From Sphaerochaeta associata (GTDB lineage Bacteria; Spirochaetota; Spirochaetia; Sphaerochaetales; Sphaerochaetaceae): a DNA stretch of 64,000 nucleotides. This document shows, piece after piece, positions 35,576 to 52,284 of this stretch; position 1 is the first letter of the stretch; the number at the start of each line of letters is the position of its first letter. Both the position numbers and the translations under genes were made by a program. The stretch lies in the NCBI RefSeq assembly GCF_022869165.1, contig NZ_CP094929.1, positions 2,852,001 through 2,916,000 on the forward strand. Direction: 5' to 3'. Below the pieces are notes generated by a model, which saw nothing but the letters and a program-made list of their open reading frames with translations, did no database searches and was not told the origin of the DNA.

Positions 35576-35637
35576 TTGACAGAGAATGAGCTTGGTTGTA
35601 TATTGAACAGTGTTCAATATTCTAACACTGTTCAATA
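35576..35637 (+). promoter_or_regulatory. Promoter and TetR operator of the first TetR cassette
   Basis: TTGACA (35576-35581), 17 bases, TATATT (35599-35604). TATTGAACAGTGTT (35601-35614) and its exact inverse AACACTGTTCAATA (35624-35637) flank nine bases. The left arm also lies inside a perfect 15-base palindrome, TTGAACAGTGTTCAA (35603-35617). The operator overlaps the -10 and start site, so binding by the TetR protein at 35648 would repress its own operon. Confidence 0.9.
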
Positions 35638-35647
35638 AGGAGCAACC

Positions 35648-36265
35648 ATGTCTACACGAAGGGAACGCGACGCCTTGCGGATGAAGGACGATATTCTCGA
35701 TGCTGCACGACAACTGGCAGAGAAAGAGGGCTTCGAAGCAATTTCCATACGGAAGATCGCCCAAAAAATCGACTATACCCCCTCGCTGATCTACCACTAC
35801 TTTGCCAGCAAGGAGGAGATTGTCTCCGTCCTCCTGCAACAAGGCTATGCAAAGCTTGCCGCAGCTCTTGGAGCAGCTGGCAACCAGGCACAAGACCCCA
35901 AGCGCAAGCTGATGGCGATGACCCGAACCTTCCTGCAGACAGCGCTCGAAATACCTCAGGAATTTACCATTGTTCACACCGATGGCTCACCCTCGGTGGT
36001 GGAACACACCTCCTACCTCTTCAAGGGAGCAGCCGAAAAACGCATTGCCATACGCATCCTTGCCCAATGCATTCAAAGCATGCATCAAGACAAGGATGTG
36101 AACTTCTCCCTGATTGAATTATCAGCCCAGTCCATAGCTGCTGCAACCATGGGTCTCGCCTTGAAACTCATCGTGGAAAAAGACCTTGACGAGACGCAGA
36201 GGGAAACGATCATCACCTACTTCAGTGAAGTAGTCGTAGTGCGCATGGCCGGAATGGAGGATTAA
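35648..36265 (+). CDS. TetR-family repressor, first cassette
   Basis: A 205-residue protein with a TetR_N helix-turn-helix (AISIRKIAQKIDYTPSLIYH) at about residues 35-60 and a helical C-terminal ligand domain. AAGGAG precedes the ATG. It is followed after three bases by an FMN-binding lipoprotein and then by a small CRHEGLD protein, all under the promoter and operator at 35576-35637. It probably represses this operon until an unknown small molecule binds it. Confidence 0.92.
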   Translation: MSTRRERDALRMKDDILDAARQLAEKEGFEAISIRKIAQKIDYTPSLIYHYFASKEEIVSVLLQQGYAKLAAALGAAGNQAQDPKRKLMAMTRTFLQTALEIPQEFTIVHTDGSPSVVEHTSYLFKGAAEKRIAIRILAQCIQSMHQDKDVNFSLIELSAQSIAAATMGLALKLIVEKDLDETQRETIITYFSEVVVVRMAGMED

Positions 36266-36268
36266 CAC

Positions 36269-36649
36269 ATGAATAAACTACTTGCTCTTGCTCTGATGCT
36301 TGGCATCACCCTCTTGGGCTCCTGCAGCCTGTTCTCGCTCACCAGAGGGCTTGATGAGATGATGAGCCTTGAAATTGGGGAAGTCGATCTCGCAGTCGTA
36401 CCGGACGGCCCCTACCGGGGATCGTTCGCCTTTGAACGATGGAGCAATACCGTGGAGGTGACGGTACAGAACCATGTAATCACGGCAATTCGCATAATCA
36501 AGGACATGAAGTTTGCAAAGGACGAGGTCTCCAGTGCCGTGTTTGAACGCGTTCGGACCCAGCAAAGCGTACAGGTCGATGCCGTATCCGGCTCAACAGT
36601 TACTTCGAAAGCCTATCTTAAGTCCATCGAATTGGCATTACAGCCATAA
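36269..36649 (+). CDS. FMN-binding domain lipoprotein
   Basis: A 126-residue lipoprotein with lipobox LGSC (Cys19) and one FMN-binding domain. The flavinylation motif DAVSGSTVTS lies at about residues 104-113, with the second Thr as likely FMN attachment site. It resembles the FMN-binding domain of RnfG/NqrC and other ApbE substrates, and would carry covalent FMN outside the cytoplasmic membrane. GGAGGATT precedes ATG 36269, three bases after the TetR stop. The only ApbE in the window is at 50682-51638. An electron-transfer role is inferred. Confidence 0.85.
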   Translation: MNKLLALALMLGITLLGSCSLFSLTRGLDEMMSLEIGEVDLAVVPDGPYRGSFAFERWSNTVEVTVQNHVITAIRIIKDMKFAKDEVSSAVFERVRTQQSVQVDAVSGSTVTSKAYLKSIELALQP

Positions 36650-36678
36650 CAATCTTTTTACAAGGAGGATTCACTACC

Positions 36679-36939
36679 ATGGAATTCACACAGTACGACC
36701 ACCAGCGGTACCGGCAGCAGCTTACGCAAGGCGTGCAGTTCAGCCCGGCATGCAGACACGAGGGACTCGACACCCTTTATATTGCACACTGCATGCGAGA
36801 TCCGAACAAAGGAGGGTCCCTGATACTTTTAATCAGTGGGCTCTATCGCCGGCTTCAGCATGCCTACGCTGCCAACAGGCTGCAAAGGCTTGAGTGCAAA
36901 GTCCGCTTTTTTCAGCACAAGCTCTATGGGACCTTGTAG
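36679..36939 (+). CDS. Small protein with CRHEGLD motif
   Basis: An 86-residue product with AGGAGG about eleven bases before ATG 36679. Near residue 25 it carries ACRHEGLDTLYIAHC, and the C-terminal half is rich in Arg, Tyr and Leu. The motif is shared with the 48-residue product of the next TetR cassette (CRCEGLDAEYVRYRL at 38055). I know no family with this motif. The Cys/His spacing might bind a metal. It is probably cotranscribed with the TetR and FMN-binding genes. Confidence 0.65.
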   Translation: MEFTQYDHQRYRQQLTQGVQFSPACRHEGLDTLYIAHCMRDPNKGGSLILLISGLYRRLQHAYAANRLQRLECKVRFFQHKLYGTL

Positions 36940-36945
36940 AAACAG

Positions 36946-36987
36946 TTGACAGGGAATAGGAAAAGGTGTATATCTAACGTACGTTAG
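36946..36987 (+). promoter_or_regulatory. Promoter and operator of the second TetR cassette
   Basis: TTGACA (36946-36951), 17 bases, TATATC (36969-36974), followed by the 14-base perfect palindrome CTAACGTACGTTAG (36974-36987) covering the start site. The same half-sites recur at 37579-37592 before the next gene, so one TetR protein should control both. Confidence 0.9.
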
Positions 36988-37001
36988 GTAAGGAACGAAG
37001 T

Positions 37002-37559
37002 ATGACCGACCAGGATTTGAAGCAGACCATCAAGCGAATCGCAGTAGAGCACTTCAACCGAAGCGGCTACCATGGAACGACCATTCGGACCATAGCCAGC
37101 GAAGCCGGCTGTTCACTGCCCATGGTCTACTACTACTATAAAAGCAAGAAAGAGTTGTTCCATGAGATCATCAAGGAAGACTACTTTGGCATCCTCAAGA
37201 GGGAGTCGGAGAGACTTGACAGCAGTTCCATGCTCGACTTCTATACCAATTTCATCCTCAATGTCATGCACCTGAATTCGTATGAGAAGAAAATCTACCG
37301 CCTGGGAATCAAGGTGTACCTCTCCTTCGATGGCGATGACGAGCTTCTGTCTCTCATGGAAGCCTGGGAGGCTTCAATCATTCCACGTCACAGTGCGATC
37401 CTGCTCCCCCACTTCAAGGGCAGAGCCGATGCACAAGTCAGGATCCGGACGTTGATGCACCTCATGGAAAATCTGATCGAGGGCATCGTGGTGAAGAGCA
37501 AGGTCATGAGCGAGGAAGAGATCCGCCAAGAGATTTCCATTGTATTGGGAGGAGAGTAA
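37002..37559 (+). CDS. TetR-family repressor, second cassette
   Basis: A 185-residue TetR-type regulator with helix-turn-helix TIRTIASEAGCSLPMVYYYY (about residues 26-45) and a helical ligand domain. AAGGAA precedes ATG 37002. The palindromes CTAACG-TA-CGTTAG and CTAACG-AA-CGTTAG lie before this gene and before the next one, 15 and 21 bases from the respective starts, so it most likely represses both. Its ligand is unknown. Confidence 0.92.
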   Translation: MTDQDLKQTIKRIAVEHFNRSGYHGTTIRTIASEAGCSLPMVYYYYKSKKELFHEIIKEDYFGILKRESERLDSSSMLDFYTNFILNVMHLNSYEKKIYRLGIKVYLSFDGDDELLSLMEAWEASIIPRHSAILLPHFKGRADAQVRIRTLMHLMENLIEGIVVKSKVMSEEEIRQEISIVLGGE

Positions 37560-37578
37560 AAAAATTTGCTTAAAATAC

Positions 37579-37592
37579 CTAACGAACGTTAG
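37579..37592. promoter_or_regulatory. Second operator of TetR 2
   Basis: CTAACGAACGTTAG, identical in both arms to the palindrome at 36974-36987 with AA instead of TA at the centre. It sits 21 bases before the Cys-rich protein gene and just after the repressor stop. Confidence 0.85.
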
Positions 37593-37612
37593 TGTAAATA
37601 AAGGAGCTACGT

Positions 37613-38050
37613 ATGGAATCAGAACAGAAATTGGCAATCTTGCAGAATGTCTATGCAGCGGCAATTGCAGAGACCGTGAACACGTACCAGGGACTCGGCG
37701 CCCTTACAGCCATTGAAAAGCGAAAACAGGAGAGGCAGGGGCAAACAGCACCCTACCTGCTTGCACAGCTTGGCATTTCCACAGTCGAGGGTGTTTTCTC
37801 AAGTTTATCCAACATTTTCGGTTGTGCAGACTGGAAGGTGGAGCATGATGGTTCGGGTTATAACGCTGTAGCCACAACCTGCAAGCTCTGCGCTCTCTCG
37901 AAGAAAATGGGAGGGGCCTCCCCCTGCAAGGGATGGTGCCTCGATCCCATGATTGCGATGATCAAGGCCTTGGAGAGCAAGGCGACCGTGGACGTCGAAC
38001 AGACGCTCATGAATGGTTCTTCCTGCTGCCTCACGGTTAAGCTGGGATAG
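37613..38050 (+). CDS. Cys-rich cytosolic protein under TetR 2 control
   Basis: A 145-residue product starting after AAGGAG. The C-terminal half holds a cysteine cluster, CKLC near residue 86, SPCKGWCLDP near 103-112, and a final SSCC near 138-141, of the kind used for metal or Fe-S binding. The pattern faintly recalls ATC-hydrolase-like and V4R-like small-molecule domains, but I cannot assign it. Its own operator suggests strong induction when the TetR ligand is present. Confidence 0.7.
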   Translation: MESEQKLAILQNVYAAAIAETVNTYQGLGALTAIEKRKQERQGQTAPYLLAQLGISTVEGVFSSLSNIFGCADWKVEHDGSGYNAVATTCKLCALSKKMGGASPCKGWCLDPMIAMIKALESKATVDVEQTLMNGSSCCLTVKLG

Positions 38051-38054
38051 CACT

Positions 38055-38201
38055 ATGATCAAGGACCTGCAACTCAGTTCGTATTGCCGGTGTGAAGGAC
38101 TTGACGCAGAGTATGTACGGTATAGGCTTCACTGCATTCAACAGAAAGCGTACAGGAAATACGTGCGTGCAATGTTCCGTTTCTTCATAGCCTTCCTTTG
38201 A
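38055..38201 (+). CDS. Small CRCEGLD protein (48 aa)
   Basis: A 48-residue frame beginning four bases after the Cys-rich gene stop, so probably translationally coupled. It contains SYCRCEGLDAEYVRYRLHC, similar to the CRHEGLD region of the 86-residue protein at 36679, then an Arg/Lys-rich hydrophobic tail (RKYVRAMFRFFIAFL). Shared motif, order and cassette position are the evidence that it is real. Function unknown; the tail could be membrane-associating. Confidence 0.6.
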   Translation: MIKDLQLSSYCRCEGLDAEYVRYRLHCIQQKAYRKYVRAMFRFFIAFL

Positions 38202-50226: not shown

Positions 50227-50670
50227 TTACTGCGCAGCCTGTTTCAATGCATTCTCGAATGCTTTCAGGTGGGTCTTGGAAGTGACAGTCGCCCCGCTGA
50301 TCACATCTACATCAAGCGTTTTTGCTTCGATGGCTGTCTGAAACAACTCATCAATGGTCCTTCCCTTGGAAAGCTTGACCGGCTGACCATTCTTGGGAAC
50401 AGCACCCTTGAGAATCCTGAAACTTGAGACTTGTCCACCTGCAATCTGCACCTCGACTTGGGTGTCGCGAATGTGCGAGGTGCAACCCTCCCACTTCCCG
50501 ACGTACGTCCCATCCTTGAGGTTTGAGAACTGCACATTCTCAAATTGCAGCTGGGATGCCTCCTTGCGGTTCGGCCCATCCACACGCATGGCCATTACCA
50601 GGCCAACGGCGATCAGCACCAGCAAAGCAAACAAAATCCACCACATACGTTTTCTCCTTGTTGTACGCAT
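50227..50670 (-). CDS. Membrane-anchored FMN-binding domain protein
   Basis: A 147-residue protein: one N-terminal span (MWWILFALLVLIAVGLVMAM) and an FMN-binding domain with DVISGATVTSKTHL near the C-terminus. The Thr after GA is the expected site of covalent FMN. ATG 50670 is preceded by AGGAGG. The domain should face outside the cytoplasm. It lies after the apbE-like gene in one operon, so it is the likely substrate. Confidence 0.85.
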   Translation of the reverse strand: MRTTRRKRMWWILFALLVLIAVGLVMAMRVDGPNRKEASQLQFENVQFSNLKDGTYVGKWEGCTSHIRDTQVEVQIAGGQVSSFRILKGAVPKNGQPVKLSKGRTIDELFQTAIEAKTLDVDVISGATVTSKTHLKAFENALKQAAQ

Positions 50671-50681
50671 TCTGTTCCTCC

Positions 50682-51638
50682 TCAAATACTGAGAAGCGAT
50701 ATGCTCAGTCCCGTTACCGGTTGGAAAACGGGGACCAATGACTCGGATATCCATCCCATCAAGTGCTCATCAATGGCAAACACCCCTACTTCGGGAAGTT
50801 CGGCCAAGAGCTTTTTGCAGCCCTTGATGCCTGAAAGAAAGAATGTTGTTGAAAGGGCATCCGCATGCAGGGAACGAGGGCAGACCACCGTCATACCAAT
50901 CAAGCCGGAGCGGGCCGGACAGCCGGTCCTCGGATCGAGAATGTGGTGCTGCCGCTTTCCTTGTGAATCGATGAAGAACCGTTCATAGTCACCACTGGTG
51001 ACAACCGAGACGTCCTTGGCCGCGATGGCTCCAACCAAAGAGTTCTGGATCCTGGGATGACGGATGCCCACCTTCCATGCCGACCCATCCGGTTTCGATC
51101 CCAGAAGCAACACATTGCCTCCAAGGTTGATATACGCCGATTCAATACCCCATTCGATGAGCACCTGCTTGGCACGATCGGCGGCATAACCCTTGGCCAA
51201 GCCTCCCAGATCCAACAGCATCCCCTGCTTTCCCAAGCCGGCACGTCGATTCTTCACATCCAACCGAATCTGGCGGTAATCGACAAGTGAGCGAACTTCT
51301 TTAATGGCGGCTTGGGTGGGAGGGGTTGCAGCATGGGTGAAATCCCAAAGATTCATCAGAGGAGCGATGGTTACATCGAACGCACCGCTTGAGAGAGCGC
51401 CGATTGCCACGGCTTCCTGCAGCACCTCGATGGTATCGGGGGAAACATCCACCAAACCGTCTCCCGCCCGAGTGTTGATGCTGCTCACCTCGCTATCGGG
51501 AAGAAACCTGCTCATCAGTAATTCCAGACGCTTCACTTCGGCAAAAGCCGCCTCAATCGCCGCCTCGGGCTGTTTTCCATAGACCTTGCAGGACAGTTGG
51601 GTATGCATGACTGCTAGATTTGCCTCGACGCTACGCAT
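50682..51638 (-). CDS. apbE: ApbE-type FAD:protein FMN transferase, no visible signal peptide
   Basis: A 318-residue ApbE-family enzyme that moves FMN from FAD to Thr of FMN-binding domains. It has SRFLPDSEVSSIN near residue 43, DLGGLAKGYAADRA near 143, LGGNVLLLG near 172 and HHILDPRTGCPA near 237. These cover FAD binding and the Mg site. The N-terminus (MRSVEANLAVMHTQLSC) lacks a signal peptide or lipobox, unlike most exported ApbE proteins. GGAAGG precedes the ATG. It overlaps the TetR gene by eight bases and precedes its probable substrate by 11 bases. Confidence 0.9.
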   Translation of the reverse strand: MRSVEANLAVMHTQLSCKVYGKQPEAAIEAAFAEVKRLELLMSRFLPDSEVSSINTRAGDGLVDVSPDTIEVLQEAVAIGALSSGAFDVTIAPLMNLWDFTHAATPPTQAAIKEVRSLVDYRQIRLDVKNRRAGLGKQGMLLDLGGLAKGYAADRAKQVLIEWGIESAYINLGGNVLLLGSKPDGSAWKVGIRHPRIQNSLVGAIAAKDVSVVTSGDYERFFIDSQGKRQHHILDPRTGCPARSGLIGMTVVCPRSLHADALSTTFFLSGIKGCKKLLAELPEVGVFAIDEHLMGWISESLVPVFQPVTGLSISLLSI

Positions 51639-52218
51639 GTCTGCCTTCCTGTATCAGGCCGTCCATCACCAACGAGGTGATCGTGTCCAGCAACCGGGGG
51701 AAATGCTCCACTCCAATCTCCTCCTTGTGCACATCGATATTGATGATCGCCGTAAACACCAGCATGATCGTCGCGGCATCTATATCGTTTCTGATCTTCC
51801 CTGCAGCCTGCCACCTCCCCACCAACTCGACAAAGGTATCGTAGAGGAAGTGCACCGCTTCACTGCCGTGCTCAAGGCGATAGACCTGCTCGAGTTTTGC
51901 AAAGACCTTGCGGTTGTACCACTCTCGTAGAATCGGACTGCTACGCATGCCTTCACTGTTGCACGCGAGCATATGGGCGATCACTTCCTTCGGCTCCTGC
52001 GTTACATCAAGCTGAGCCTGGCACTTCTGTTTCAAAGCCGCGTTCTCTTCAAGGAATATATCCAGGAACAGTTTTTCCTTCGACGGATAGTAGAGGTAAA
52101 AAGTTCCCACAGCGAGCCCCGCCTCCTTGGCGATTTGGGCTACGCTGGTGGATTTGAACCCACCCTTGGAGAACAATGTCTTTGCCGCCTTGTACAATAG
52201 AGCCTGTTTCTCTTCCAT
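51631..52218 (-). CDS. TetR-family repressor of the ApbE operon
   Basis: A 195-residue TetR protein with helix-turn-helix STSVAQIAKEAGLAVGTFYL at about residues 23-42. I start it at ATG 52218 with AGGATGG upstream. The upstream GAATGAA-N10-TTCATTC repeat is its likely operator. It is the first gene of a leftward operon with apbE and the FMN-binding protein, so it probably represses them all. Confidence 0.9.
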   Translation of the reverse strand: MEEKQALLYKAAKTLFSKGGFKSTSVAQIAKEAGLAVGTFYLYYPSKEKLFLDIFLEENAALKQKCQAQLDVTQEPKEVIAHMLACNSEGMRSSPILREWYNRKVFAKLEQVYRLEHGSEAVHFLYDTFVELVGRWQAAGKIRNDIDAATIMLVFTAIINIDVHKEEIGVEHFPRLLDTITSLVMDGLIQEGRHA

Positions 52219-52229
52219 GCATCCATCCT

Positions 52230-52284
52230 GAATGAATATTTTTAAATTCATTCATTTATACTGAAAAGGCTCCTTTTTAGTCAA
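52230..52284 (-). promoter_or_regulatory. Promoter and operator of the TetR-apbE operon
   Basis: On the minus strand TTGACT (52279-52284), 18 bases, TATAAA (52255-52260). GAATGAA (52230-52236) and TTCATTC (52247-52253) form an inverted repeat with a ten-base spacer immediately after the -10, placed to block the start site. Confidence 0.8.

Follow-up and report, generated by a model that had tools for sequence, protein, structure and literature searches.

Two gene cassettes headed by TetR-family repressors lie back to back in a 64,000-nucleotide stretch of the Sphaerochaeta associata genome (the window), and the last gene of each encodes a small protein. An earlier note, made from the sequence alone, took them for an undescribed stress or ligand-response module with a conserved small-protein component. 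The locus raises the question of whether the two small proteins are genuine and related gene products, to which of the neighboring genes they are tied, and what role they could play.

Organization of the two cassettes

Gene calls confirmed the order first noted, with a TetR gene, an effector gene and a terminal small-protein gene in each cassette and all six genes on the same strand (Table 1). Both repressors, designated TetR1 and TetR2, passed the curated TetR_N cutoff of 24, with 56.5 and 46 bits, respectively. The effector of cassette 1 was upheld as an FMN-binding lipoprotein by its Pfam FMN_bind match, and that of cassette 2, described earlier as a Cys-rich protein, could be further identified as a member of the Pfam ATC_hydrolase family. 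The latter resembles its family in passing the gathering score and differs in having a conserved TetR partner and a two-operator layout; hydrolysis of 2-amino-thiazoline-4-carboxylate would be predicted from family membership. The 48-residue frame had been suggested to overlap or couple with the preceding stop codon. The two do not overlap (TAG at 38048-38050, ATG at 38055), and the 4-nt gap fits translational coupling.

Table 1. Features of the two cassettes, with positions in the window
Feature	Position	Strand	Details
Sigma-70-type promoter of cassette 1	35576-35604	+	TTGACA-17-TATATT; near-consensus; same layout before the TetR1 genes of G012 and G018
TetR1 candidate operator	35601-35638	+	TTGAACAGTGTTCAA (35603-35617) and imperfect second copy (35621-35635)
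TetR1, TetR/AcrR-family repressor, 205 aa	35648-36265	+	Pfam TetR_N E 2.4e-15
FMN-binding lipoprotein, 126 aa	36269-36649	+	Pfam FMN_bind (PF04205) E 1.1e-7, 32.8 bits vs cutoff 22
sm86, 86-aa small protein	36679-36939	+	Strong ribosome-binding site AAGGAGG
TetR2 candidate operator at its own promoter	36974-36987	+	CTAACGTACGTTAG; found before TetR2 in six genomes, four genera
TetR2, TetR-family repressor, 185 aa	37002-37559	+	Pfam TetR_N E 4.4e-12
Second TetR2-type candidate operator, before the ATC_hydrolase gene	37579-37592	+	CTAACGAACGTTAG; same position in six genomes
Cys-rich ATC_hydrolase-family protein, 145 aa	37613-38050	+	Pfam PF14196 32.6 bits vs gathering score 28.1; most of profile covered
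sm48, 48-aa small protein	38055-38201	+	4 nt downstream of the ATC_hydrolase-family stop

Each repressor had also been placed under its own palindromic operator. In agreement, promoter-overlapping dyads that are likely to serve as operators are present at both TetR1 and TetR2. The promoter of cassette 1 runs directly into TTGAACAGTGTTCAA, a 15-bp dyad with no other perfect match in the genome, and this candidate operator is kept upstream of all seven TetR1 genes found by homologue search. Rfam gave no match around the window cassettes.

Membership and coding status of the small-protein family

Single-sequence and profile searches identified 17 members of the small-protein (sm) family in 12 of 139 genomes of the host's bacterial family, distributed over three genera. 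They fall into the subfamilies sm86 (three members), sm48 (two), sm83 (four), sm84 (one) and sm50 (five), plus two singletons from genome G012. The core of the family is EG[LIV]DxxY, in which E28 is invariant and G29, D31 and Y34 are nearly so.

As profiles re-find the sequences that they contain, each subfamily was left out in turn, the profile was rebuilt, and recovery was tested among 8,490 open reading frames, a set made up of fetched loci and so not a neutral database. The profile without the 48-residue form recovered it at E 1e-6 and 4e-5, and the profile without the 86-residue form recovered that one at E 1e-7 to 1e-15. Every subfamily left out was recovered, its best member at about E 1e-5 or better, with unrelated frames reaching about 0.004. 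sm86 and sm48 are distant homologues within one unnamed family, and the CR(H/C)EGLD motif that had been noticed in both reflects a relationship beyond chance. Two further traits attributed to the pair did not extend to the family: the motif Cys is replaced by Ser in the sm83 branch, and the tail that follows the motif is basic and aromatic without sequence conservation. A redox or metal role of the motif Cys as the general function was rejected because of the branch that carries Ser.

The small frames are, on substitution patterns, coding sequences. sm86 is 63% identical to its counterpart in G012 and 56% to that in G018, with dN/dS of 0.25-0.35 and changes mostly at third codon positions. For sm48, identity to the G012 counterpart is 77% and dN/dS, based on few changes, 0.31. 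The low dN/dS proposed as support for both frames was thus found, and across divergent pairs of family members the values are 0.2-0.4.

No member matched Pfam, NCBIfam, PHROGs, PADLOC or PDB sequences, which bears out the impression that the small proteins belong to no known family. Beyond the host's family, 395 genomes of the class and 393 of the phylum yielded no convincing member, the sub-threshold candidates being one frame that contains a stop (G276) and one inside a longer frame (G028). A pattern scan of GTDB contigs returned only equivalents of the members in G041, G054 and G039. Searches of phages, plasmids and viral contigs gave no match, and an origin from such elements was rejected, as was a link to defence systems in view of the PADLOC result. 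No earlier description was found in the literature. On the basis of these searches, sm is an unnamed, lineage-specific small-protein family, and the word 'undescribed' in the original proposal of a stress or ligand-response module holds for it in all libraries searched.

Association of the small proteins with TetR1 and TetR2

The homologue search identified seven copies of TetR1-type repressors in six of the 139 genomes, and each copy has an sm gene nearby, 1.0-4.5 kb away. As the seven copies are related by descent, they represent only about two independent arrangements. In the first (window, G012 and G018), TetR1 is followed by the FMN lipoprotein and then by sm86. In the second (a further copy in G018, and G041, G054 and G039), sm83 leads a different gene set, composed of a secreted 191-aa protein and a probable membrane protein with, in G054, an additional CPBP protease, and TetR1 lies at the far end. 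Comparison of the two gene orders leaves TetR1 and sm as the sole pair present in both.

An operator matrix was trained only on the TetR1 promoters of cassette 1 (window, G012 and G018). Upstream of sm83, it scored 35.0 bits (locus L067), 30.7 bits (L105) and 36.8 bits (L106), against a background maximum of 18.3 bits over about 418,000 positions. The fourth locus (L066) showed a weaker 17.0-bit site at the aligned position, which alone is not above background. All four sites are directly 3' of a conserved TTGACA/TAAATA promoter, 420-510 bp before sm83. Since a matrix derived from cassette 1 finds sites before the sm83 operon in the second gene order, sm, and not the lipoprotein, would be the constant TetR1 target, and TetR1 appears to control sm in two unrelated gene arrangements. 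Given this apparent control and the sm gene near every TetR1 copy, the small protein is probably a genuine working output of the TetR1 switch. The locus otherwise resembles known autoregulated TetR/AcrR operons in its TetR_N domain, the dyad over its own promoter and the neighboring target genes, but what always accompanies TetR1 is a small protein of an unnamed family, not a transporter or enzyme. What would be new here is such a family serving as the invariable output of one TetR type, tied to it through the operator.

The stretches between operator and sm83 (L067 6647-7120, L105 4416-4900, L106 3712-4216 and L066 6286-6701) are alignable between genome pairs. A structured RNA in this 420-510-nt leader was rejected for lack of an Rfam match and of a conserved fold; no conserved frame was found in it either. 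In G018, the region of the sm83 operon contains a transposase-like gene of 520 aa, beside a shortened membrane-protein frame (L066 3298-4860).

Homologues of the small proteins thus adjoin TetR genes in other genomes, as the earlier note had anticipated. With the coding substitution patterns, both checks suggested there came out in its favor, and its interpretation is for the most part supported. The idea of a conserved module of a TetR and a small protein stood for TetR1, with all seven copies accompanied, and not generally for TetR2 and the 48-residue protein. TetR2, the ATC_hydrolase gene and both candidate operators are found at fixed positions in six genomes of four genera, and sm48 accompanies them only in the window and G012. 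By sequence comparison, the conserved core of cassette 2 is TetR2-ATC_hydrolase, with sm48 as an add-on in two species. The ATC_hydrolase gene of G012 is broken by an in-frame stop (L062 1601-2035), and the sm48 downstream is intact. In G029, TetR2, ATC_hydrolase and an orthologue of the cassette 1 FMN lipoprotein are consecutive, which suggests that it is not by chance alone that the genes of the two cassettes are neighbors here. A supposed sm gene after the G029 lipoprotein was rejected as a chance match.

Other members occur in different surroundings. Seven of the 17 have no TetR noticed nearby: five are located before the genes of a NarL-type response regulator and a histidine kinase, one comes after an array of dyads, and one stands alone. 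The five are the 50-residue sm50 proteins, encoded in five genomes between a CPBP protease and the response regulator with its kinase. In G016, sm84 is directly upstream of an orthologous FMN lipoprotein, another arrangement of these two genes, and three GGTAAT/ATTACC dyads precede the pair (L068 6460-6520). No regulator of this GGTAATnnATTACC array was found in G016, including beside other copies of the dyad in that genome. One of the G012 members has a different TetR and a flavodoxin-like gene in its neighborhood. The sm50 frame of G019 runs into the C-terminal part of the neighboring histidine kinase (L073 6183-6626), as if a deletion had taken the response regulator and the kinase N terminus.

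Possible roles of the small proteins and their partners

Starting from the genes, candidate operators, coding status, sm homology and the TetR1 operator common to two gene orders, all read from sequence, we consider it fairly probable that the cassettes are autoregulated repressors that drive envelope or redox proteins and, with them, a small helical protein serving as effector or adaptor. TetR1 and TetR2 would each occupy the dyad at their own promoter, and TetR2 also the second dyad at the ATC_hydrolase promoter, until a small ligand releases the repressor, as would be expected from knowledge of TetR proteins. Release of TetR1 would lead to expression of the small helical protein together with cell-envelope proteins, namely the periplasmic FMN lipoprotein here and, elsewhere, two unnamed proteins, one secreted and one probably in the membrane, joined in a single genome by a CPBP-type membrane protease. 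Release of TetR2 would give the ATC_hydrolase-family protein, with the sm gene added in two species. The small protein itself may be a cytoplasmic, helical adaptor or effector whose N-terminal core is HTH-like and whose C-terminal helix is basic and in part amphipathic; its target would be the envelope response or the regulator of that response. Support for this reading comes from the TetR1-sm linkage, the operator sites before sm83, the sm-lipoprotein pair of G016 and coding evolution, and further from the recurrence of the two TetR2 operators, the G029 gene row, tail amphipathicity and helical models. The TetR-less contexts and the distance of sm83 from its candidate promoter count against it, as do the low-confidence models with their insignificant structure matches, the L066 score and the common descent of the TetR1 copies.

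Structural information comes from two AlphaFold models of low confidence (mean pLDDT 68 and 66), in which short helices (residues 8-16 and 21-28) are followed by a turn at EG[LI]D (29-31) and a long helix. In most members the tail is basic, and the tails show some amphipathicity (combined P 1.5e-4, with the sequences related to each other). The models are thus helical and, at this confidence, vaguely HTH-like; as their matches in structure libraries are weak and helical, no fold is claimed.

An adaptor or effector working with envelope proteins is favored over two serious rivals. The first, that sm is a dedicated antirepressor or co-regulator that would bind and tune the neighboring TetR1, TetR2 or response regulator, we judge rather unlikely. 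Fifteen of the 17 sm genes are close to a regulator gene (ten TetR, five NarL-type response regulator), but regulated genes often adjoin their regulator anyway; sm always accompanies TetR1 and its predicted co-expression with the repressor would fit feedback, but TetR2 lacks it in four of six genomes, and no TetR partners sm50 or sm84. The principle is illustrated by CinS of Rhizobium, a small protein that tunes the repressor PraR (PMC4149787). The analogy is functional only, in that a repressor could be modulated by a small protein produced close to a regulator; PraR is a different repressor from TetR1 and TetR2.

The second rival, that the small proteins are miniature HTH DNA-binding regulators, seems improbable. 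The helix-helix-turn-long helix layout would suit it, and HTH domains (EsrB, DesR, XRE, CII and TraR) make up the majority of the weak structure matches. None of these is significant: Foldseek E values are at least 1.2, and the best match in VIA, Z 5.3 to EsrB, was obtained with low-confidence models, for which, being helical, a Z of 5 is ordinary. HTH family membership by profile was rejected, as Pfam HTH profiles gave no match at E<=10 and hhalign of the sm profile against small sets of NarL-type and TetR HTH sequences returned a probability of about 0.1%. A role as peripheral, fast-evolving passengers of ordinary TetR operons, without consistent function, deserves little credence as well: the family is rare and patchily distributed (12 of 139 genomes), sm48 is absent from most TetR2 loci and identity between subfamilies is low, but constraint over divergent pairs, the E, G, D and Y that are invariant or nearly so, and the perfect TetR1 linkage with operator placement in two gene orders argue against it.

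The EG[LIV]DxxY proteins could form a new class of small proteins that are associated with regulators and specific to the lineage of Sphaerochaeta and close genera. They would serve several sensory inputs, among them two or more types of TetR and a two-component system, as interchangeable effectors or antirepressors coupling a sensor to cell-envelope changes; we offer this tentatively, as a possible but doubtful reading. Small proteins are widely missed by annotation, and comparative evidence gives this family a regulatory address. With a repressor and operator apparently controlling sm in two gene orders, its function becomes testable by simple experiment.

In an under-studied group of spirochaetes, the arrangement would connect sensing by TetR with flavin redox in the periplasm and with envelope proteins. 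The FMN lipoprotein, with orthologues in G012, G018, G016 and G029, has a signal peptide, a lipobox-like Cys and the motif DAVSGSTVTS. The published motif for flavin attachment by ApbE is D-x-x-[S/T]-G-A-[S/T] (PMC12052999), from which DAVSGST is one residue off, with Ser for the usual Ala in all five orthologues. The lipoprotein thus resembles extracytosolic FMN_bind proteins flavinylated by ApbE (PMC8238504, PMC12052999) and differs from them in the Ser and in its linkage to a TetR and sm. Two ApbE genes are present in the genome, one of them within the window, and together with the near-canonical motif they make covalent flavinylation of the cassette 1 lipoprotein plausible. A cluster on the minus strand of the window (50227-52251) comprises a third TetR gene at 51631-52251, the gene of an ApbE flavin transferase at 50682-51638 and, at 50227-50754, that of a second FMN_bind protein, which has the canonical motif DVISGATVTS. 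A TetR/FMN_bind set resembling this cluster is present at L065 11693-13684.
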